Below are positions 1 through 11,428 of a stretch of DNA of 64,000 bases, one piece after another; the first letter of the stretch is position 1; the number at the start of each line of letters is the position of its first letter. The notes under the pieces are model-generated. The model worked only from the letters and a program-made list of their open reading frames with translations. It did no database searches and had not been told where the DNA came from. Position numbers and translations under genes: made by a program. Origin of the DNA: Microcaldota archaeon (lineage in GTDB: Archaea; Micrarchaeota; Micrarchaeia; Anstonellales; Bilamarchaeaceae); NCBI GenBank assembly GCA_030648615.1, contig JAUSHJ010000040.1, forward strand, positions 1 through 64,000. Reading direction: 5' to 3'.

Positions 1-1194
1 ACTGCAATTTACGGTATCGTACGAGTACTTTTTGATTTCCTTGGAATTACGCGTGGAGGCTCGGAATTATGGTGGGCTCTTCTGATACTTGGATTAGGTA
101 TGTTTTCCGCAGTGCTGGGCGTGCTCTATTCTTTGCTTGAACATGATCTAAAACGTTTGCTTGCCATGCATAGCATAGAGAATATAGGAATAATATTTAT
201 CGGTCTTGGTGCGGCAGTATTCTTTTCCTGGGCACGGTTACCACAGTTATCTGCGCTTGCATTATTCGCTGCTCTATATCATACACTCAATCATGCACTG
301 TTCAAAAGCTTACTTTTCCTTGGTGCAGGGAGTATTGCATATGCTACACACGAAAGAAATATCGAACATTTAGGTGGGCTTGCGAAGTTCATGCCTGTCA
401 CTGCAATTCTATTCCTTCTTGGTTCAGCTTCCATTGCTGCAATTCCACCACTGAACGGTTTTGTCAGCGAGATACTTACTTTTAACGCACTGTTAGGTGG
501 TATCGGTTCATCAAAAACAGCTTCACTTGTGCTATCTTTAGCAGTATTATTTCTTGCTCTTACCAGTGCCCTTGCAGTTGGTGCTTTCGTAAAAGCTTTT
601 GGTATTCCTTTCCTGGGGTTACCTCGCAGCAAACATGCAACGCATGCAAAAGAAGTTCCGAAAACTATGCTATTGGGTATGGGGATTCTGGCATTGGCAT
701 GCATAGCCGCGGGCGTGTTTCCTGTTATTGCGGCACAATCTTCTATAGGTATTTTCGATTCCCTTGGATTCACAGATGTATCTCCTACAATCGTGACTGC
801 AGCAGAAGGTCTTAATACCTCTACAATCATGCTTCTGTTGATTCTAGGTTCAATTGTTGTTGGAGGAGTAATCTGGCTTATAAGTAGAAGAAAATATGAT
901 CAAATCGGTGAAACCTGGGGTTGTGGAAGTCCAGCAGGAACACCGCAAATGCAGTATTCTGCAGCAGGATTTGCAATGCCTGTAATTAGAGCACTTAATG
1001 CGTGGTTCGACCCATTATCTAAATCTGCAGCCTATGGTTCTGAGTTATTTAATTATTTTATATATGCTCCCTTATCAAATCTATTCAATTCCCTTGCTCC
1101 TCACTCAGCTATTTTCCACACTGGGAAACTTAGCGACTATCTGATGTATCTGTTGGTAACTCTTGCCATAGTATTAATCTATGCACTCTCGTGA
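1..1194 (+). CDS. hyfB: HyfB-like proton-antiporter subunit, 5' truncated by window edge
   Basis: The reading frame is open from base 1, so the ATG at 100 in the ORF track is internal and the gene starts outside the window. The protein is a polytopic membrane subunit of the Mrp/NuoL-NuoN antiporter family, closest in flavour to HyfB/HycC. Visible family marks are 'EHDLKRLLAMHSIENIG' near the start, a helix with the buried Lys in 'NHALFKSLLFLGAG', and the HyfB-like tail 'ETWGCGSPAGTPQMQYSA'. In group 4 hydrogenases and complex I relatives this subunit couples electron transfer to H+ or Na+ movement. The stop overlaps a GTG of the next gene by 4 bp, which indicates an operon. Because the hydrogenase-like subunits downstream lack metal ligands, the driving reaction is unknown. 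Confidence 0.9.
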   Translation, partial: TAIYGIVRVLFDFLGITRGGSELWWALLILGLGMFSAVLGVLYSLLEHDLKRLLAMHSIENIGIIFIGLGAAVFFSWARLPQLSALALFAALYHTLNHALFKSLLFLGAGSIAYATHERNIEHLGGLAKFMPVTAILFLLGSASIAAIPPLNGFVSEILTFNALLGGIGSSKTASLVLSLAVLFLALTSALAVGAFVKAFGIPFLGLPRSKHATHAKEVPKTMLLGMGILALACIAAGVFPVIAAQSSIGIFDSLGFTDVSPTIVTAAEGLNTSTIMLLLILGSIVVGGVIWLISRRKYDQIGETWGCGSPAGTPQMQYSAAGFAMPVIRALNAWFDPLSKSAAYGSELFNYFIYAPLSNLFNSLAPHSAIFHTGKLSDYLMYLLVTLAIVLIYALS

Positions 1195-2849
1195 TCCCTA
1201 TGACTATTGACCTATCTTCGATTGCAATGGCAATTCTTCAAATATTATTCATATTCGGTTTCTCACCTTTACTCATAGGTATTATGCGTAAAGTCAAGGC
1301 ACGCCTCCAGGGAAGAATCGGCAGTCCAATCATTCAACCATACATTGACGTGCTAAAACTTCTTTCAAAAGGTACGGTTAAAAGTTCTATTTCGTCATTC
1401 ATTTTTACCATTGCTCCAGTACTTGGTTTTGTTTCCATTGCAATAGCTGCATTAGCACTTCCAATCATTTCATCATCACCTTTCCTTGTAGTCAGCATAA
1501 TAATATTTGCATATCTTTTCTCCATAGGAAGATTCATGACTGCATTATCTGGTCTTGATGCAGGAAGTGCATTTGGAGGTCTGGGTTCAAGCAGGGAAAT
1601 GCTTTACTCTGTACTTATCGAGCCTGCGCTTTTCGCAGTCATTTTATTTCTGGTTGCTTCAGGCAGTAGTAGTATTACACCAATAGCTGGAAATAGTTGG
1701 GATACATTTGCAATGTCACCTGTTCATTGGTTTGCGGCATTGGCACTTTTTATCATAATTCTAGCAGAAACAGGACGGCTTCCATTCGATAATCCTGCAA
1801 CTCATTTGGAGCTTACAATGGTTCACGAAGCAATGATACTTGAAAATTCTGGACCAAATCTTGCTTTAATTGAATGGGGACACGCATCAAAAATATTTCT
1901 TCTTTTTTCACTGTTAGCGATAATCTTCTTACCAGCATTCCCTCAAGATAGTTTGCTCAGGCCAGCATTTATTCTCGGAATTTCAATTATTCTTGCAATC
2001 GTTACTGCAGTAGTAGAAAGCATAAGCGTTAAAGTGCGTCTTTTCAAAGTCGGAGAATTGATGTTGCTTGCAATGCTCCTTGCAGGTCTTTCACTCCTAA
2101 CAAAAATTTTTGGAAGCGGTTTGCGCCAGGAAGATTTCGCAATAACCCTGCTTGTTTTCCTGATGCTTCTTAGTTCGCTCTATTTCATATTCAGTGCAAC
2201 TTTCAAACGTCGACTTGAGATTTACATTTTCCAAAGTATCTGTCTAGTGCTTATATTTATCCAGCCTGTTCTTTTAGGAGCTGGAGGTACAGAAGATTAT
2301 TTCCGGATTATAACTACGGTTATTTTCAAACTAATCGTGATCCCGTTAATATTCTATCATCTATTCCGTACATTGCCAGGTGAAGTAAAACTACTGCCAA
2401 TTCGTTTCTATAAAGTTTTCAAAGAATCAAAAGATGAACTCAAATTTAATCTGGATTTCGACCCTCTTTTCACCATTGCACCCATATCAACAACACGCGG
2501 ACTTATCTATGCAGGTGTTCTCGTACTTCTCGCATTTATACTTTCCTCATTTTTCGGTGTTACTACACTTGTACTTCCATTCGTTCTTTCTCTAATTCTG
2601 ATAGGTATGCTAATAATCGCCGTTAAAACTCATTTGCTATTGCAGTTGTTCGGTTTTCTTCTCATGGAAAATGGAGTTACATTGTTGCCCTACGCTCTTT
2701 CCATAAAAATACCTATCATAAGCGATATGGTTGCCCTGTTAGATGTTGTATTGTTGATAATACTTGCAGTGCTTCTTACGCTAAAGATACAGGTTAAACT
2801 CGGTACTTTAGATACAAAGGAGCTTGATGAACTTATAGAAAAAAGGTGA
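1191..2849 (+). CDS. Fused HyfC (NuoH-like) and HyfE (NuoK-like) membrane subunit
   Basis: A 552-residue, highly hydrophobic protein. Residues about 1-310 match the HyfC/HycD/NuoH family: 'LQGRIGSPIIQPYIDVLKL' near residue 40 and the quinone-site-like stretch 'ETGRLPFDNPATHLELTMVH' near residue 195. Residues about 330-552 look like HyfE, a NuoK-related subunit, ending with 'FGFLLMENGVTLLPYAL' and a helix-rich tail. HyfC and HyfE are separate proteins of roughly 320 and 215 residues in E. coli, and the length here equals their sum, so this reads as a gene fusion; no HyfD gene lies between them. Start is either the GTG at 1191, overlapping the previous stop, or the ATG at 1200. It belongs to the operon with its neighbours on both sides. 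Confidence 0.82.
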   Translation: MIPMTIDLSSIAMAILQILFIFGFSPLLIGIMRKVKARLQGRIGSPIIQPYIDVLKLLSKGTVKSSISSFIFTIAPVLGFVSIAIAALALPIISSSPFLVVSIIIFAYLFSIGRFMTALSGLDAGSAFGGLGSSREMLYSVLIEPALFAVILFLVASGSSSITPIAGNSWDTFAMSPVHWFAALALFIIILAETGRLPFDNPATHLELTMVHEAMILENSGPNLALIEWGHASKIFLLFSLLAIIFLPAFPQDSLLRPAFILGISIILAIVTAVVESISVKVRLFKVGELMLLAMLLAGLSLLTKIFGSGLRQEDFAITLLVFLMLLSSLYFIFSATFKRRLEIYIFQSICLVLIFIQPVLLGAGGTEDYFRIITTVIFKLIVIPLIFYHLFRTLPGEVKLLPIRFYKVFKESKDELKFNLDFDPLFTIAPISTTRGLIYAGVLVLLAFILSSFFGVTTLVLPFVLSLILIGMLIIAVKTHLLLQLFGFLLMENGVTLLPYALSIKIPIISDMVALLDVVLLIILAVLLTLKIQVKLGTLDTKELDELIEKR

Positions 2850-2855
2850 AAACAT

Positions 2856-4322
2856 ATGCTTGAACTAATAATCCTTCCTCCAATAATTTGCGGTTTACTT
2901 GCATTCCTATTCTCGAAACGCCCAAGAGTTTCAGAAATTGTAGCTATCGCAGGAGTACTACTTGCAGCGTTCTTTGCACTTTTTTCAGTCTGGAGTTTTT
3001 TACAGTCTCCGGTGGGATTTACTGATTTCTACGGTTTCCTTTACATGGATTCTATTTCGGCTTTATTCACAGCACTTACAACTGTCGTTGCAGTTTTTGT
3101 CTTCATCTATTCAATCGGTTATATCCGTCATGAAGTCGAAGAAAAATCTATTGAAGAACATAAAATAGGAGAGTATTATGGTCTTCTTTCCTTTTTTCTT
3201 GCAGTCATGCTTCTTGCTACGCTTGCAGCAAATATCGTTGTGATGTGGGCATTTATAGAAGCCACGACACTGGCATCAGTTTTCCTCATAAGTTTTTACA
3301 ATACTTCTAATTCGATAGAAGCAGCATGGAAGTTTTTCATAATTAATTCAGTTGGTATTCTTCTGGCACTTGTAGGGATAATGTTTCTTCTATATGCAGT
3401 ACTTCAGCCTGGGTTAGAATCTCACGGAGATTGGGTCAGCTTGCTTGCTCTTCACAGTGGAGCAAACATATTTTTCCTGAAGATCGCATTTGCATTTATC
3501 ATAGTTGGATTCGGTACGAAAGTTGGTTTTGCTCCGCTTCACGTATGGCTTCCTGATGCGCATAGCCAGGCTCCGACACCTGTAAGTGCACTTCTATCAG
3601 GTGTTCTACTGAACATAGCTTTCTACGGGATAGTAAGAGCGTATATGATAATTTCTCCGTATCCCGAGCTTGTTGCATTTGCTTCAAATTTGCTTATAGT
3701 TTTCGGTCTGCTTTCACTTGTCATCGGTGCACTTCGTTTGTACTTTCAGGATAACCTCAAACGCATGCTTGCATACTCCAGTGTCGAAAATATGGGTATA
3801 GTCGCGCTTGCACTTGGTCTGGGTGGCCCTATCGGAATATTTGCTGCTCTTTTCCATATGGTTTCTCATTCTTTGGCAAAGTCACTCGCATTTCTCACAA
3901 GTGGAATGGTGGCATTTGCTTTCGGTACCAAGGAAATACGGTTAATAAGAGGTGCTGCACAGAAAATTCCTCTGGTGGCAATTCCATTTGTTTTCATAGC
4001 CATAGGCATTGCAGGCAGTCCTCCGTTCGGTACATTCTTCTCTGAAATAGGTATTCTTGCAGTTTCTCTTTCCGCAGGACAGTTAGTGGTTGCTGCTATT
4101 TTCATAATTTTTACTACAATTACTTTTGCCAGTTTGCTTTACCGTACTTCTGGCATGTGTTTCGGGGAAAAATCAGAAAACGCAACAGATTTTACTCCAG
4201 ATATTACGATGATGTTTTCATTCATTGCTCTTCTGGTACTTGCAATATACTTTGGCATAGCGCCTCCGGGTGAATTTATCAAGCTTCTTCAGTTGGCAGT
4301 ACAGGCTATAAAAGGTGGTTAA
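2856..4322 (+). CDS. hyfF: HyfF-like proton-antiporter subunit
   Basis: A 488-residue polytopic membrane protein of the NuoL/NuoM/NuoN antiporter family. The core signature 'KVGFAPLHVWLPDAHSQAP' near residue 225, the helix with 'HMVSHSLAKSLAFL' near residue 330, and 'NLKRMLAYSSVENMG' near residue 305 are all present, including the conserved Lys residues of the proton channel. The gene starts 6 bp after the HyfC-HyfE fusion and runs into the HyfG-like gene, so it is part of the same transcript. Its likely role is ion translocation in the membrane arm of the complex. HyfF is the best name by gene order; HyfD or NuoN-like are alternatives. Confidence 0.88.
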   Translation: MLELIILPPIICGLLAFLFSKRPRVSEIVAIAGVLLAAFFALFSVWSFLQSPVGFTDFYGFLYMDSISALFTALTTVVAVFVFIYSIGYIRHEVEEKSIEEHKIGEYYGLLSFFLAVMLLATLAANIVVMWAFIEATTLASVFLISFYNTSNSIEAAWKFFIINSVGILLALVGIMFLLYAVLQPGLESHGDWVSLLALHSGANIFFLKIAFAFIIVGFGTKVGFAPLHVWLPDAHSQAPTPVSALLSGVLLNIAFYGIVRAYMIISPYPELVAFASNLLIVFGLLSLVIGALRLYFQDNLKRMLAYSSVENMGIVALALGLGGPIGIFAALFHMVSHSLAKSLAFLTSGMVAFAFGTKEIRLIRGAAQKIPLVAIPFVFIAIGIAGSPPFGTFFSEIGILAVSLSAGQLVVAAIFIIFTTITFASLLYRTSGMCFGEKSENATDFTPDITMMFSFIALLVLAIYFGIAPPGEFIKLLQLAVQAIKGG

Positions 4323-4323
4323 T

Positions 4324-5901
4324 ATGGCAGATGAACTAAAACAATTCACAGAAACTTTCGAAAAATCTCTAAAGCCAGGTGCTTTGAAATCATCAGATGA
4401 ACGTGGTAACTGTATCTGGTTAACTGTTCGTCAGAGTGATCTTTTGCAAGCCTGCCAGGTGTGCATGGCCAATGATAGTGTTTTTGATTCTGCTTTCATA
4501 TCCTCTCGAGGCAATGAGCCTGCCAGTTCATTCATAGTCTATTACCTCTTTCGCTCAGCAGCTCTTGGTAAAATGGTCGTAGTGCAATCACAGGGCAAGG
4601 AATTCGACGCAATATCTGCCGACGTCAATGCAGCACGTTGGGACGAAAGAAAAATGCAGGATCTTACTGGCTTGAAATTTACGAATATTCCAGATTCCAG
4701 ACCTCTTATTTTTCATCCAGAAAGTGAAATGCCAGATAAGCACCCGATTGGCGGCAAACAATTAATCAAGCCAAAAAATCAGGATTATCCTATAGCTGGT
4801 ACTGGTATGGAAGGTGAGTTTCAGATTGCAGTTGGCCCGGTTCATGCAGGTATAATCGAGCCAGGACACTTTAGATTTCATGTTTTAGGTGAACAGATAA
4901 ATAAATTAGAGACAAGGATGTTCTATCTTCATCGTGGCATTGAGAAATCACTGGAAGGTAAGAATCTGGTAGAATCCTTACCTATGATTGAGCAGATTTC
5001 AGGGGATGAATCAGTAGCCAATAGCGTTGCCTTTTGCCATGCTGCCGAGCGTGCATTTTCTTTAACTGTTCCGAAACGCGCAGAATTCATACGTGCAATT
5101 CTTCTTGAATTAGAAAGAATATATAGTCATCTTGCCGATCTCGGTGGTATGCCTACTGATGTTGGTTTTTATTTTGCAGCTTCAAGATTTGCAGTGCTTC
5201 GTGAAGATATGATGCGGCTTAATCAGCAAGTTTCTGGCAACCGCTTCCTTCGTGGCATTTGCGCAGTAGGTGGAGTAACGAGTGATATTGATAAAAGTAA
5301 AACATTTATCATTACCAAAACGCTTGATGAGTTCCTAAAACGTTTCGAAGCAATAGAACACACAACATTAACATCATCTACTTACTTGGATAGAGTATTT
5401 TCAACCGGAAAAGTACCAAAGAGTGCTGCAGAAGACCTGGCATTGGTGGGTCCTGTTGCACGTGCATGCGGCATAAGCTGTGATTTGAGAAAGTCACTTC
5501 CGTATTCTGTTTATTCTGATCTATCAATCAATGAGTCAATGGAAGCAAATGGCGATGTTTTATCCAGGTTTTTAGTGAAAGCCAGTGAAGTTAAAGAATC
5601 GGTAAGGCTCGTAAAATGGCTCGTGCATAATTTGCCTTCAGGAACTTTAAGTTGCCCGGTGAAATTGCCATCAGATGAGGAAGCAGTACATTTTGGAGTA
5701 GGATGGGCAGAAGCACCAAGAGGCGGTTGTACGTTCTTTATAGAACTTTCCGACAGTGGAAAAATAGATCGGCTTGCCTGCAAAACTCCATCATTCAGAA
5801 ATTGGCGTGGCATAGAAACTTGTACCGATGGAAACATAGTCCCGGATTTCCCATTAATCAACAAAAGCTTTAACATGTCCTATGCTGGGACAGATCTATG
5901 A
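4324..5901 (+). CDS. hyfG: HyfG-like large subunit (NuoC-NuoD fusion) without NiFe ligands
   Basis: The first 150 or so residues form a NuoC-like domain and the rest is related to the large subunit of group 4 [NiFe] hydrogenases and to NuoD ('FRFHVLGEQINKLETRMFYL', 'HRGIEKSLEG', 'LELERIYSHLADLGGM'). The N-terminal nickel motif RxCGxCxxxH is replaced by 'EQISGDESVANS' (Cys to Ser and Glu, His to Asn), and the C-terminal DPCxxCxxR motif is absent; the protein ends '...MSYAGTDL'. It therefore cannot bind a NiFe centre in the usual way, as described for Ehr complexes. The ATG at 4324 is preferred because GGTGG lies just upstream; the track start at 4315 is that Shine-Dalgarno GTG. The start overlaps the previous stop codon region by operon logic, not by sequence. 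Confidence 0.85.
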   Translation: MADELKQFTETFEKSLKPGALKSSDERGNCIWLTVRQSDLLQACQVCMANDSVFDSAFISSRGNEPASSFIVYYLFRSAALGKMVVVQSQGKEFDAISADVNAARWDERKMQDLTGLKFTNIPDSRPLIFHPESEMPDKHPIGGKQLIKPKNQDYPIAGTGMEGEFQIAVGPVHAGIIEPGHFRFHVLGEQINKLETRMFYLHRGIEKSLEGKNLVESLPMIEQISGDESVANSVAFCHAAERAFSLTVPKRAEFIRAILLELERIYSHLADLGGMPTDVGFYFAASRFAVLREDMMRLNQQVSGNRFLRGICAVGGVTSDIDKSKTFIITKTLDEFLKRFEAIEHTTLTSSTYLDRVFSTGKVPKSAAEDLALVGPVARACGISCDLRKSLPYSVYSDLSINESMEANGDVLSRFLVKASEVKESVRLVKWLVHNLPSGTLSCPVKLPSDEEAVHFGVGWAEAPRGGCTFFIELSDSGKIDRLACKTPSFRNWRGIETCTDGNIVPDFPLINKSFNMSYAGTDL

Positions 5902-5910
5902 GGTATTATT

Positions 5911-6465
5911 ATGATAATAGAAACACTGAAATCTATATTTGTTTGTTACACCGATCATGTTTCGGAAAATTCTCCGGATCCTGATATACGTGCAGTTGCA
6001 CTATTGCTTAAACAACGACCACTGTCCCGTTTCTCACGTTCTATTCACGTGCGTATGGTTGACTGCGGTTCTTCTAACGATGTTGAGCTTGAAGAAGGAC
6101 TGATGATGTCGCCACGCGTAGATGCTGAACGTTTTGGTATACATTTTGTTGCTTCTCCTCGTCATGCAGATGTGCTTCTTGCTACAGGCCCAGTAGCACA
6201 AAATATGCGTAATGCACTTGTAAGAACCTATGAAGCCATGGCTGAACCGCGTGCCGTGGTAGCTGCGGGTGATGGAGCTTGTACTGGCTGGCCTTTCAAA
6301 GGTAGCTATGCACTAGCTGACAATGGCAGTGGAAGAGTGGAAGATGTTGTGCCAGTGGCTGTAAAAATTCCAGGTAATCCTCCAAGTCCCTATCAGCTTC
6401 TTGCTGGTATTTTGAAAGTAGGTATGATTCTAGATCAGAAAAGACGTGAAATGAGAAAAATATAG
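5911..6465 (+). CDS. hyfI: HyfI-like small subunit (NuoB family) with depleted FeS ligands
   Basis: A 184-residue protein of the NuoB/HycG/HyfI family. Family residues are clear in 'RSIHVRMVDCGSSNDVELE', 'ERFGIHFVASPRHADVLLA' and 'GPVAQNMRNALVRTYEAM'. In hydrogenases and complex I the sequence is GSCNGCE, and later GDCA and GCPPSP, giving the four Cys ligands of the proximal [4Fe-4S] cluster. Here these read GSSNDVE, GDGAC and GNPPSP, so at least three ligand positions are gone. A Cys before the first motif and one in 'GDGACTG' remain. Together with the ligand-less HyfG partner this argues for a complex that no longer carries out hydrogenase chemistry. The gene sits 9 bp after HyfG and closes the operon. 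GAGG lies upstream of its ATG. Confidence 0.85.
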   Translation: MIIETLKSIFVCYTDHVSENSPDPDIRAVALLLKQRPLSRFSRSIHVRMVDCGSSNDVELEEGLMMSPRVDAERFGIHFVASPRHADVLLATGPVAQNMRNALVRTYEAMAEPRAVVAAGDGACTGWPFKGSYALADNGSGRVEDVVPVAVKIPGNPPSPYQLLAGILKVGMILDQKRREMRKI

Positions 6466-6649: not shown

Positions 6650-7861
6650 ATGACCACCACACATAAATCTTCACTCACTAATGGTAGAAGAAAACCTCAT
6701 TCTAATCCAGTTAGAAATTTTCATTTAAGTAGTCCTCTAGTTGAAATACTTCCTCATAAGCAAAAAAGAAATAAACACGGACGTATCTCTATTCCAGAAT
6801 CTTATGAAATATTAAGATATGGTGCTGCTATGGGTCAAAGAAGAACAACTCCTTCGAAAACTGCAAGATGCTCATTTAGGAGAGTGATGGGAAATATCTT
6901 TGAACATGATAATATAATTGCAAGAAGAGAGCTGAAGCGAATGTTTGAAAGAATAGAAATATACGGAGCGTTTTTAGTGCTTGGTCATGGTGGCGGATTG
7001 CCATGCGGAGCAGTTTCGGCAAAACAGAGCCATGCCGAGCATTCTTTAGAAGAGCACTCTTCAATACTGCAAGTTCTTGAAAAAATTCCATCCGAAGTTC
7101 TTGGACGCGCATCACCTATAGCAGAAACATTAAATGCGCGACATCAGGCAAGTATGCTTTTGGATGATCATGAATTTGGTGCAATAATAAGAGAGAGAAA
7201 TATAACTGTAGTTACAGGTATATGCACAGATAGCGAAATACGTTTTGAAGCATTAAATCGTACGGGCTGGAATACAAGTCAACTAATTGAGCAACATCCT
7301 TTATTAGGTACATTGAGCAAACAAATGAAAAAAGCACTTAAAATCATGGTAATAGATGGAAAAGATATTAAGGAACAGTTTGCTCATGTTTTATTTGTAT
7401 GGGATCCTGAAGACTTAAAAAAAGTAAATGGTCAAGACAGAAATGAATTATCTGTTGGGGGGATTTGTTGTGTTGATGCAAGATTGCCTCCGAGAACACC
7501 TGGGCCAAGATTCATATTAGGGGTACGTCCTGGAGAAGCCGCAGGGGTAACCTGTGCTGTAAATGGAAGCGTAGATTTCACTGGTGGTGAAATTGCATCT
7601 ATAAAATACCTATTAGATCATGTTAAAGGAATTGCACCTCATTTAGGGGGAAATGGTCACATTGTAACATTCGCATCTAATTTGGAAACTGCAGAAATGA
7701 TCAGAAGAAGTATAATCGCCGATGGTACAGTCGATGAAGAAACGCAAGATGGGAAGACTATAAGCATTGCTTCGTTCAATGGAAGATCTTTGATAGTAAG
7801 GAACGAACATTTTGAACAAGAAATAGTCATGCCATATAATCCAGTTGCAAGAATATTCTGA
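6650..7861 (+). CDS. Beta-carbonic-anhydrase-like protein, permuted motif order, copy 1
   Basis: A 403-residue protein not assigned to a named family with certainty. Residues 76-122 read 'FRRVMGNIFE' then 'VLGHGGGLPCGAVSA', resembling the RNAGN and HxxCGA motifs of beta-carbonic anhydrases, with His113 and Cys119 as possible zinc ligands (spacing wider than HxxC). 'NITVVTGICTDSEIRF' near residue 185 resembles the strand that follows in that family. Near residue 274 'CVDARLPPR' resembles the CxDSR zinc/catalytic motif, which normally comes first. The order is thus permuted, or the protein has two half-domains. The next gene is a paralogue that keeps every one of these residues. GGTGAGGTGG lies upstream, 20-30 bp from the ATG. 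Zinc hydrolase or lyase activity is inference. Confidence 0.45.
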   Translation: MTTTHKSSLTNGRRKPHSNPVRNFHLSSPLVEILPHKQKRNKHGRISIPESYEILRYGAAMGQRRTTPSKTARCSFRRVMGNIFEHDNIIARRELKRMFERIEIYGAFLVLGHGGGLPCGAVSAKQSHAEHSLEEHSSILQVLEKIPSEVLGRASPIAETLNARHQASMLLDDHEFGAIIRERNITVVTGICTDSEIRFEALNRTGWNTSQLIEQHPLLGTLSKQMKKALKIMVIDGKDIKEQFAHVLFVWDPEDLKKVNGQDRNELSVGGICCVDARLPPRTPGPRFILGVRPGEAAGVTCAVNGSVDFTGGEIASIKYLLDHVKGIAPHLGGNGHIVTFASNLETAEMIRRSIIADGTVDEETQDGKTISIASFNGRSLIVRNEHFEQEIVMPYNPVARIF

Positions 7862-7967: not shown

Positions 7968-9152
7968 ATGCATTCGTTAAAACGCACAGAATCGAATAGA
8001 CTAGTTTTAGGTAGAGATATTACTGCGACTGTAGGGTCATTAAAACCGAGAGCATACGGTAAATTACTTACACAAGGTAAAATATCTGTACCAGAATCTT
8101 TTTATTTATTAGATCATGGTTTTACGGATTTTCAAACTAAGCCAGAACCTACTAAAACTAGATTATGTGAGCTTAGAAGAGTTGCTGGTAACATTTTTGA
8201 AGCAGAGGATCATGTGGCTAGAAGAGAAATAAGAAAGATGCTTACTAATGTGAAAGATGAAGGAATATTTTTGATACTCGGACATGGCGGGTCAATCCCA
8301 TGTGGTGCAGTATCAGCAAAGAAAAAATTACTTACTGATGGAATCGATGTGCATGAAAATATATCTCATATCTTAGATCACATACCGGTTGGGATACTTG
8401 GATTAAATTCACCAGAAGCAGAAGAACTAAATGCGAGGCATCAAGCAACTTTGCTTTTGGATGATTCTGAATTTAGTGCAATTATAAACGATAAACACAT
8501 AAGTGTAGTGACAGGTATATGTACCGATACCGGAATAAATTTCAACGTAATTAGAGAAAGTAAATCAGATGGTATACTAAATCCAGGTTCAGTATTGGTG
8601 GCATTAAGTGATCAATTAAAAAGAGGATTATCAACTGCCTTAGAAGAAGGAAAAAATTTACAAAAACATTTTGCACACGTTATGTTTATCTGGGATCCAC
8701 AAGAAATGGCACATGTGATGAATCCAAAAAGTGAACCTCTGGAATTGGTAGGGTTATGTTGTATCGATGGGAGATTACCTCCAAGAGTCCCAGGTCCAAG
8801 ATATATATTTAGAACCAGAGCAGGAGAAGCAGTTTCAGTTACTTGTTCTATCAATGGAAAAGTCGAATTTACAAAAGGTGAACTGGGGTCAGGTCTTTAT
8901 GGTCTAAACCAGGTTTACGGATTGGCACCAGGTAGAGATGGAAACTGGCATGTTCTTGCATTTGCTTCTAGTATGGAGCATGCTCGAATGATTAGAGAAG
9001 CTGTTTTAGAAATGCCAGAATTTGTTAGTTTGACAAAAGGTGGAGCCACAATCAGTGTTGGTTTTTTTGATGGCGAATTGTTGGTACTGAGAAATGGAGT
9101 TTCAGGTATAACTATAAGAAGACCGTATATTCCAGATACTCCAATCCTCTAG
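7968..9152 (+). CDS. Beta-carbonic-anhydrase-like protein, permuted motif order, copy 2
   Basis: A 394-residue paralogue of the preceding gene; the two align over nearly their whole length. Shared blocks include 'RRVAGNIFE', 'LGHGGSIPCGAVSAK', 'LNARHQATLLLDD', 'VVTGICTDTGI', 'FAHVMFIWDP' and 'CCIDGRLPPRVPGPR'. The conservation of His, Cys, and the C-x-D-x-R set between otherwise diverged copies suggests they are functional ligands or catalytic residues. The similarity to beta-carbonic anhydrase motifs is described under copy 1. The stop codon overlaps the stop of orc1 on the opposite strand by 4 bp. The spacer before it (7862-7967) is short and shows only an AAGTGA ribosome-site-like stretch, so co-transcription with copy 1 is likely. 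Confidence 0.45.
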   Translation: MHSLKRTESNRLVLGRDITATVGSLKPRAYGKLLTQGKISVPESFYLLDHGFTDFQTKPEPTKTRLCELRRVAGNIFEAEDHVARREIRKMLTNVKDEGIFLILGHGGSIPCGAVSAKKKLLTDGIDVHENISHILDHIPVGILGLNSPEAEELNARHQATLLLDDSEFSAIINDKHISVVTGICTDTGINFNVIRESKSDGILNPGSVLVALSDQLKRGLSTALEEGKNLQKHFAHVMFIWDPQEMAHVMNPKSEPLELVGLCCIDGRLPPRVPGPRYIFRTRAGEAVSVTCSINGKVEFTKGELGSGLYGLNQVYGLAPGRDGNWHVLAFASSMEHARMIREAVLEMPEFVSLTKGGATISVGFFDGELLVLRNGVSGITIRRPYIPDTPIL

Positions 9153-11428
9153 TTTCTTCCTAAATTCTTTCCAACTATTTCTAAAATGTCTTTAGCTTCG
9201 TGTCCTACTTTTATTAGAGTCGTGTGACCACGCATTCCCTTGCTGCTCATTTTTGTTGTAATTAGTCCAAGCATTTCCAAATCATTTAAATATTCATGAT
9301 ACCAACGGACACTGCGAGCTCGTTTTTTTATTTTTTTACATACTAATTCATATTCTTCGTAGACTTCTCCTGAGAATAAAAAGCCTTCCATATTGTCAAG
9401 TCGTGCATATTTGCTGCCGTTCAACGAAAGATTTGCAATTGCATTTAGTAATATCTGATGGTTTTCTGGCAGTGTGCTAATTGTTTCAGCAGCAATATCG
9501 AAATCAACTTTTTTTCTTGCAGCTTCTACTTCATTATCAGTTATTTTTTTCTTTCCAGTCTGTTCAGCTATTTCTCCTGCCTTGAATAATAGCTTCAAAG
9601 CATAACGAGCATCCCCACTTTCCTGTGCAGTCATAGCTGCAGCAAGATTAACTGCACTGCTTTCCACTGTACCTTTGTTGAATCCCATCTCAGTTCTTCC
9701 ATCAAGAATTTTCCTTAACTGTTCACTCGAGTAAGGTGGGAAGACCATTTCAGTTTCGTAGAGACTGCTCTTACTTCTTGGATCTAAAGCATCTTTGAAT
9801 GATAATTTATTTGAAATTCCAACTATGCTAACTCCGCCTTTTTTTACCTCGTCATTTACTCTTGTTAGCGTGTAGATCAGTTCGTCCAAATCTTTTATCA
9901 TGTCTATTTCATCCAACACTATAACGAACTGATAATTATTTCCTATTATGTCAATAATTTTTTCATAGTAAAATGGCAATCCGAATCCTGCTTTTTCTAG
10001 TTCAGGTACAAATGGTTTAAGTAATTTCTGGAGAATTCTGTAGCGTGAATTATAAATTCTGCAATTAAGGTATACCATACTTGCGTTTTTTGCAGATTTA
10101 TTGAAATTATCCATAATGCTTTTTACTGAGCATGTTTTTCCCGTATTATGTGATATTATTCCATTTGCTATAAAATTATGGTTACCCGGAACAGTTAGAT
10201 CGTAAACAGTATCTTCGTAAGTTTCTTCTATTGCTATTATTTTGGAAGATAACAAATCTGATTTATAATTTCTTTTTAATCTATATCTATTTTCTAACAT
10301 CTCCTTTAGTTTTTCCTGCTTTTCTTTATGGTAAAAACCTATTTTATTGTAAAATTTAGTTAGATTATCTACTCGAGTTACATATAGTCTATAGCTATCG
10401 AAATACTTGCCATTGCATTTTGCTTTTTTATGTATTATTTTTGAGTTTATTCCAAATTGGTTTAGCAATAACATTATGTCCTGCAATAATCCTTTGGAAT
10501 TAGAATAATACTCTATCATAAACGTATTTTTTGATACCGTTCCATCTCCAGAAAAAAGCGCCTTTAGGAATTCTATTTGTGTTTGTTCATCACATTCAAA
10601 AATTATTTTTGGTACTCGAACAATATAACTTTTTTTACCCTTAGGGATACCTAAAAATGAAAGACAATCACATATCTTTTGGGATATTACTTCAACCTGC
10701 AAAGTTTTTCTACTTAACTGTTCTCTTCTGATAGTTGCTTTATAAGGGAATAAATCTGTTAAGTCTTTTTGAACCAATTGCAATAACTCCACAGTGTTAC
10801 TAGTATATCTTAGTCGTTGCCTATTAGAATTATACCAGTAACCTTTGCTATCCTTTGTCCGTTTTTTCTTCTGGTTTATGCTTCCATCGCTTATTACAAA
10901 ACCCAATAATCTTGCCAATCCAAAAGGAATCTGTTTTTTGCTCTCATTTGAAAAATTAAAACCAAGAAGGACATCATCATCTTTTTCTAGTTTGTCTGCT
11001 TTAGCCCATGTCAAATCTTTTAATAATAGCGGGTGATCTTTAGTTACTACCAATTCCAGACCGTTATCTAGGACTATTTTAAGTAATTTGTCATTATTTT
11101 TAAAAGTCAAGAATTTGAAGTTTTTCCATTCGTATTTTCTAGTTTTCAAATTGAAAGTTAGCACTTTTTCTGTTCCTACTATAGATTTTATTTCTTTATA
11201 TCCCTCGTTTGTCATCACCAGCGTTGAGCCTGAAACACAACCTGTTTTTCCATAGATGAAAAGATTTCTTGGTTTTCTGCCTCTTAGTGCAGAAGATACT
11301 ACCCCCATTATTTCTTCTATTTGTTGTTCGCGGAAAGGTAAAACATCTGGTACGTAGTGTGGTGAAAGTACGGAAACGTCTTTGAATATCGATTCTCTTG
11401 CAAGAATTTGCTCAAAACTAGGACTCAT
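9149..11428 (-). CDS. orc1: Orc1/Cdc6 replication initiator interrupted by an intein in the P-loop
   Basis: A 759-residue precursor. Residues 1-63 and 429-759 form an Orc1/Cdc6 AAA+ ATPase of ordinary length, about 394 residues after splicing. Walker A is rebuilt across the junction as GKTG/TGKT, Walker B is 'FVIVLDEIDMI', and a sensor region reads 'VSIVGISNKLSF'. The C-terminal part is the winged-helix DNA-binding domain. The protein binds origin DNA and loads the replicative helicase. The intein is listed separately. The gene is transcribed away from the PRC-barrel gene; a TATA-like CATATAAATG lies about 25 bp upstream of the ATG, which suggests a leaderless or short-leader transcript. No clear origin recognition boxes were found in the 100-bp upstream spacer. 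Confidence 0.95.
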   Translation of the reverse strand: MSPSFEQILARESIFKDVSVLSPHYVPDVLPFREQQIEEIMGVVSSALRGRKPRNLFIYGKTGCVSGSTLVMTNEGYKEIKSIVGTEKVLTFNLKTRKYEWKNFKFLTFKNNDKLLKIVLDNGLELVVTKDHPLLLKDLTWAKADKLEKDDDVLLGFNFSNESKKQIPFGLARLLGFVISDGSINQKKKRTKDSKGYWYNSNRQRLRYTSNTVELLQLVQKDLTDLFPYKATIRREQLSRKTLQVEVISQKICDCLSFLGIPKGKKSYIVRVPKIIFECDEQTQIEFLKALFSGDGTVSKNTFMIEYYSNSKGLLQDIMLLLNQFGINSKIIHKKAKCNGKYFDSYRLYVTRVDNLTKFYNKIGFYHKEKQEKLKEMLENRYRLKRNYKSDLLSSKIIAIEETYEDTVYDLTVPGNHNFIANGIISHNTGKTCSVKSIMDNFNKSAKNASMVYLNCRIYNSRYRILQKLLKPFVPELEKAGFGLPFYYEKIIDIIGNNYQFVIVLDEIDMIKDLDELIYTLTRVNDEVKKGGVSIVGISNKLSFKDALDPRSKSSLYETEMVFPPYSSEQLRKILDGRTEMGFNKGTVESSAVNLAAAMTAQESGDARYALKLLFKAGEIAEQTGKKKITDNEVEAARKKVDFDIAAETISTLPENHQILLNAIANLSLNGSKYARLDNMEGFLFSGEVYEEYELVCKKIKKRARSVRWYHEYLNDLEMLGLITTKMSSKGMRGHTTLIKVGHEAKDILEIVGKNLGRN
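10145..11239 (-). mobile_element. Orc1/Cdc6 intein with LAGLIDADG homing endonuclease
   Basis: A 365-residue intein occupying residues 64-428 of the Orc1 precursor. It starts with Cys ('CVSGSTLV'), has the block B TxxH motif in 'VVTKDHPLL', and ends 'NGIISHN' before Thr as the +1 residue, so all splicing residues are present. Two dodecapeptide-like LAGLIDADG motifs, 'LARLLGFVISDGS' and 'EFLKALFSGDGTV', lie in the middle. The insertion is inside the Walker A loop, so the ATPase cannot work before splicing. Confidence 0.93.

Follow-up and report, generated by a model that had tools for sequence, protein, structure and literature searches.

Energy-converting hydrogenase-related (Ehr) complexes, described from Geobacter (EhrL/EhrS), from bacteria of the candidate phyla radiation (CPR) and from Margulisbacteria, combine Hyf-like membrane subunits with a large subunit devoid of NiFe ligands. 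The absence of the NiFe cysteines is a known Ehr trait (PMC6349859, PMC7304191) and has already been reported for CPR large subunits (PMC7304191). Here we analyze a cluster of this kind at positions 1-6465 of a 64-kb stretch of DNA (the window, meaning the whole stretch) that forms contig C65 in a 90% complete Micrarchaeota genome of 1.65 Mb and 76 contigs. Its five genes run in the same direction and were identified through Pfam and NCBIfam matches to NuoL/HyfB (hyfB), NuoH/HyfC plus HyfE (a hyfC-hyfE fusion), NuoM/HyfF (hyfF), NuoC+NuoD/HyfG (hyfG) and NuoB/HyfI (hyfI).

The window cluster resembles the described Ehr in its Hyf-like membrane subunits and its large subunit without NiFe ligands, and it falls in one clade with the sampled Ehr-like complexes. 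Ehr of the Clostridium group and of Actinobacteria keep the small-subunit cluster, whereas the window complex has lost it, lacks a ferredoxin domain and has HyfC and HyfE joined in one protein. The nearest redox relatives in our tree are formate hydrogenlyase (FHL) and hydrogenase 4 of E. coli (Hyc/Hyf, group 4a), which have the same subunit types and a fused NuoC+NuoD; FHL carries a [NiFe] site and eight [4Fe-4S] clusters (PMC9474812), while none is predicted for the window cluster. The MBS complex of Pyrococcus is also without NiFe ligands and uses loops for coupling to the membrane arm (PMC7684303), but it keeps a catalytic proximal [4Fe-4S] cluster on three cysteines, which the window complex does not. 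DAB2 (DabA/DabB) is redox-free too and is described as a system of two subunits, a complex-I-like proton subunit and a beta-carbonic-anhydrase-like (beta-CA-like) protein (PMC13144422). The link of CA-like proteins to the window complex is one of gene neighbourhood, and no DabA Pfam model matched these beta-CA-like neighbours.

The analysis reveals a complex-I-like complex that is conserved and, by prediction, folded and for which no metal redox centre is predicted; its hosts possess an ATP synthase and, in many cases, lack Fer4 ferredoxins. Since the metal sites are gone and the same form is intact in other Micrarchaeota and in Patescibacteria, the complex probably moves ions without electron flow. 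With fair but not high confidence, we read it as an Ehr-type complex of the complex I/group 4 hydrogenase superfamily that has no metal redox centre left and translocates ions without redox chemistry, by conformational coupling.

Metal ligands and phylogenetic position of the Ehr-type cluster

Ligand positions were read from alignments with E. coli HycE/HyfG/NuoCD and HycG/HyfI/NuoB. In HyfG the four NiFe ligands (C-x-x-C...C-x-x-C) are replaced by S229, E232, S522 and G525, as the original prediction, made from the window alone, had proposed. That prediction also held that most cluster ligands of the small subunit were lost; the loss goes further, because all four proximal-cluster ligands of HyfI (C-x-x-C...C...C) are replaced, by S55, V58, G122 and N156. 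HyfI Cys124 is conserved except for a Val in two relatives, but it is offset from the ligand position by two residues. The ligands of complex I cluster N2 in NuoB (CC...C...C) are absent from HyfI in the alignment, no ferredoxin-type subunit is encoded in the five-gene cluster, and neither a NuoEFG NADH module nor NuoI is found in the clusters of the window and its relatives.

Related clusters were found in five Micrarchaeota families as well as in Patescibacteria, the Clostridium group and Actinobacteria, and none of them has the NiFe cysteines. In Micrarchaeota, the small subunits (14/14, from the five families) have S/P, V, G and N/S at the four ligand positions. The Patescibacteria small subunits (13/13; the outlier L132 and two true hydrogenases are left out of this set) have D/T/S, C/V/E, D/G and D/N, so that three or all four positions are replaced in each and at most one Cys is kept, at the second position. 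Clostridium-group small subunits keep C-x-x-C...C...C and have in addition a fused N-terminal 2[4Fe-4S] domain, and those of Actinobacteria keep the four cysteines. Judging from these alignments, small-subunit cluster loss is not general in Ehr and, among the groups compared, is restricted to the Micrarchaeota and Patescibacteria forms; we found no report of an Ehr form without small-subunit FeS ligands in the open-licence literature. An isolated error is ruled out by the pattern common to the 14 Micrarchaeota subunits; pseudogenes, assembly errors and decay are likewise ruled out, the genes being intact in many genomes and their ratios of nonsynonymous to synonymous substitution (dN/dS) low. 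The outlier L132 (12659-16366) is a long-branched Patescibacteria locus with another gene order, and its small subunit is likewise devoid of cluster ligands (GGDNSAE, GTDAIS, CGNPPHP).

A tree of the large plus small subunits was built with the ligand columns masked and with Geobacter Ehr itself left out. The Ehr rows, those of clostridial, actinobacterial and Patescibacteria complexes included, form one clade (SH-like approximate likelihood-ratio test, SH-aLRT, 100) adjoining E. coli HycE/HyfG, in agreement with the Ehr type originally proposed. Four groups each hold together, namely the Micrarchaeota, the Patescibacteria (minus L132-L134), the Clostridium-group and the actinobacterial rows, and their branching order has no resolution. 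A clade of Micrarchaeota and Patescibacteria (approximately unbiased, AU, test, p 0.088) and a clade of those groups that keep the cluster (p 0.17) are neither shown nor rejected, and the ligands may have been lost once or twice.

The traits that define Ehr are present: the four NiFe cysteines are absent, the cluster includes antiporter-like and NuoH-like membrane subunits, and the proteins group with bacterial Ehr-like subunits. The four proximal [4Fe-4S] ligands, a trait of the Clostridium-group/Actinobacteria subgroup that lies outside the usual Ehr definition, are absent, and so are the four NiFe-binding cysteines by which a group 4 [NiFe] hydrogenase is recognized. By its sequence traits the window cluster can thus be assigned to Ehr, with the small-subunit cluster loss, the missing ferredoxin module and the fusion of HyfC with HyfE as its apparent novelties.

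Constraint, fold and the search for an electron source

Both antiporter-like subunits retain their proton-conducting residues. E135, K222 and E397 are conserved in HyfF, and the E/K/K/E columns are conserved in HyfB, of which only the uncut part is visible in the window, so that the claim of retained antiporter lysines was correct. HyfB E157, K51, H98, K102 and W306/C308 are conserved in Ehr; C308, found in at least 95% of rows, matches the E. coli HycC/HyfB cysteine near the C-terminal ND3-like part. In HyfG, the beta1-beta2 loop keeps H177, E182 (aligned with MbhL E21) and H185, the loop GPxHAGxIEPGHF is conserved, the C-terminal motif DFPLxNKSFNxSY is found in Ehr only, and the Ehr pocket motifs are almost invariant. 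Also kept, in part, are the coupling loops, which join the cytoplasmic module to the membrane arm and are described as important for coupling in FHL and MBS (PMC9474812, PMC7684303).

The dN/dS values show that the subunits are under purifying selection. In the pair L076 versus L078 they are 0.07 for HyfI, the most constrained subunit measured, 0.16 for HyfG, 0.09 for HyfF and 0.10 for HyfB, approximate values from one pair with synonymous sites near 1 substitution each. An AlphaFold2 (AF2) model of HyfI has a mean predicted local distance difference test score (pLDDT) of 94.6 and gives Z scores of about 17 against MbhJ, HycG and the NuoB homologues from complex I; the former cluster loops, whose modelling had been recommended, reach a pLDDT of 89-97.

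A second pair of hydrogenase large and small subunits, partnering the same membrane subunits, was sought in the window's own genome and not found, the genome encoding one PF00346 protein and one HyfI candidate. The search for electron carriers covered proteins of the Fer4 type. The sole Fer4_7 match in the genome is ABCE1. No Fer4_7 match was obtained in 10 of the 13 Patescibacteria genomes with the complex, while the control genomes all gave matches; for G053, G066 and G111 the single match is below the cut-off and falls in a frame of 566-604 aa, the size of ABCE1. The clusters hold genes of the complex only, five in Micrarchaeota and six in Patescibacteria, and no gene is conserved beside the clusters of both. 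A hidden electron-input module upstream was rejected, as none is found in the flanks of the relatives (the own genome starts at the contig edge). The initial suggestion of coupling not based on electron transfer is strengthened by the lack of ferredoxin-type proteins other than ABCE1 in the own genome and of Fer4_7 matches in 10 of the 13 Patescibacteria carriers. Its alternative, a new cofactor, has become less likely with Ser/Pro, Val, Gly and Asn at the HyfI positions, yet the Patescibacteria forms have Asp/Asn at up to three.

The same observations bear on the possibility, in our view unlikely, that the complex is still an oxidoreductase, with a cofactor independent of these cysteines (thiol/disulfide, flavin, or metal on Asp), electrons or hydride in the former cavity and a partner encoded elsewhere. 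The near-invariant Ehr pocket motifs, the Asp or Asn at several former ligand positions of the Patescibacteria forms, the ferredoxins of some carriers and the effect of formate on Ehr abundance in Geobacter (PMC7894505) are consistent with it; however, the Micrarchaeota residues make a poor metal site, the clusters contain no partner gene, several carrier genomes are without Fer4-type proteins, and in MBS, a reduced redox homologue, the proximal cluster is still required (PMC7684303).

Neighbouring genes and a possible link to carbon dioxide

The features of the window are listed in Table 1. The window starts at the first base of contig C65, so the 5' end of hyfB is missing and upstream genes cannot be read in this genome; HyfB is short of roughly 265-285 N-terminal residues, judged from relatives on complete contigs, which are usually 659-684 aa long. 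hyfC and hyfE form one fused gene in Micrarchaeota and two genes in bacteria. Further along the window, a Cdc6/Orc1 gene is split by an intein with a LAGLIDADG domain (9149-11428, minus strand). No tRNA or Rfam matches were found across the window.

Table 1. Genes of the Ehr-type cluster and adjacent CA-like genes in the window.
Feature	Coordinates	Strand	Support
hyfB-like antiporter subunit, ND3-like C-terminus fused, 5' end cut off by contig edge	1..1194	+	NF005086 hydrogenase 4 subunit B, E 2e-109
hyfC (NuoH-like anchor) fused to hyfE-like domain	1191..2849	+	PF00146 E 4e-37 (residues 15-300); NF008556 hydrogenase 4 membrane subunit (residues 318-548)
hyfF-like antiporter subunit	2856..4322	+	NF005044 E 3e-117
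hyfG/EhrL, NuoC+NuoD-like large subunit without NiFe ligands	4315..5901	+	PF00346, PF00374, PF00329; alignment
hyfI/EhrS, NuoB-like small subunit without any proximal-cluster ligand	5911..6465	+	PF01058 E 5e-19; alignment
beta-CA-like protein 1, neighbour, system membership unproven	6650..7861	+	hhalign 99.4% to beta-CA alignment; Foldseek top match 1ddz E 4e-4
beta-CA-like protein 2, paralogue of protein 1	7968..9152	+	44% identity to protein 1; same invariant motif

An A/V-type ATPase is encoded in the own genome. In five of 14 Patescibacteria loci (L009, L006, L131, L126 and L130), the Ehr cluster is no more than about 5 kb away from F-type ATP synthase genes; in L009, hyfI follows atpC by 187 bp on the same strand. 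This adjacency is unlikely to be a coincidence, the rough chance estimate being about 2% per 1.1-Mb genome, among genomes that are related. The ATP synthase operon of L126 (G343) seems to be split by the Ehr cluster, which has atpD on one side and atpC on the other. In G111, a gene next to the Ehr cluster encodes a 1287-aa secretion-type ATPase-like protein with an apparent intein (L081, 2148-6011, minus strand).

Of 16 Micrarchaeota carriers, 12 have beta-CA-like genes no further than two genes from the cluster (the window, L075-L079, L082, L083, L084 as a fragment, L139, L140 and L135), with L137 (G567) as an extra case based on the motif only. The beta-CA-like genes belong to several paralogous families and stand on either side of the cluster and on either strand. 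CA-like protein 1 of the window has H113 and C119, followed by C274-x-D276-x-R278, and its Zn-site residues are invariant. In both window proteins the CxDAR motif comes after the H...CGA motif rather than before it; a two-domain (pseudo-dimer) architecture is probable. Family F5 (L078 3128-4306, L076, L077, L082, L083 and others) comprises proteins of about 400 aa with CxD[AS]R...H...NCGM and no Pfam match over the cut-off, and it is probably a divergent beta-CA relative, so that our initial view of F5 as an unknown partner was dropped. In L140, F5 and archaeal release factor 1 (aRF1) share one 815-aa frame.

These neighbours raise the possibility, speculative and derived from the neighbouring genes only, of a CO2/bicarbonate link in Micrarchaeota. 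Modelled on the DAB complex, in which beta-CA-like DabA sits on NuoL-like DabB, beta-CA-like zinc proteins would here dock on a whole complex-I-like core, and ion flow would drive, or be driven by, directed CO2 hydration. Besides the gene neighbourhood and the precedent of DAB2 (PMC13144422), the idea draws on the zinc-site residues, invariant in both families F4 and F5, and on the presence of F4 or F5 in 12/13 carriers versus 11/134 other relatives (Fisher p 1e-10, uncorrected for kinship). However, genomes without Ehr can have F4 and F5 too, often amid the same aRF1/PurE/GlmS/Lon genes, so part of the association is due to shared synteny. Carriers G111 and G641 have no beta-CA-like neighbour, the homology of F5 and L137 to beta-CA is weak, no Pro_CA match was found in Patescibacteria carriers, and the CA motif set was found in 0 of 274 open reading frames neighbouring their clusters. 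We consider such coupling improbable, and we are a little more doubtful that in Micrarchaeota the ion flow of a complete redox-free complex-I-like core is coupled to directed CO2 hydration by docked beta-CA-like proteins. Given the Ehr-less genomes with F4/F5 and the Patescibacteria carriers without Pro_CA, the CA genes are not claimed as a proven part of the system.

A probable redox-free ion translocator and its implications

If the complex is a redox-free ion translocator, a non-redox ligand might be bound or turned over in the former active-site pocket, formed by the GPxHAGxIEPGHF loop and the DFPLxNKSFNxSY terminus. This event would shift the coupling loops, and their movement would gate the passage of H+ or Na+ through HyfB/HyfF. 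The complex may thereby spend, build or regulate the ion gradient of the ATP synthase in hosts with little or no electron transport chain.

Several points weigh against this interpretation. In HyfC, the equivalent of NuoH E216 is Ala or Ser in most cluster-free forms and Glu in the Clostridium group, and position E218 is His in all Ehr; the E-channel is therefore altered. Seven other Micrarchaeota carriers (G026, G029, G072, G082, G542, G567 and G641) have an above-cut-off Fer4_7 match, which indicates that electron carriers exist in some of them. The own genome is 90% complete, a cofactor is possibly supplied in trans by an unknown partner, and ion flux, its direction and the ligand are beyond what a sequence can show. 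An alternative in which the complex acts as a constitutive Mrp-like Na+/H+ antiporter, its cytoplasmic module being no more than a structural relic, would fit the retained antiporter residues and the small genomes with an ATPase, but it is very improbable, as HyfI has the lowest dN/dS among the measured subunits and the HyfG pocket residues and coupling loops are conserved, which is not expected of a relic.

The long-distance coupling of redox chemistry to ion pumping in complex I is still debated, and a natural complex with coupling loops and antiporter channels but no metal redox centre would be a direct test of whether these parts can work without electrons. If the CO2-hydration proposal is true, complex I would have a relative that converts carbon without using electrons. 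A redox-free ion translocator would also bear on how ion gradients for ATP synthases are handled in DPANN archaea and Patescibacteria, many of which have no respiratory chain, a question made concrete by the Ehr clusters adjacent to ATP synthase genes in several Patescibacteria lineages.

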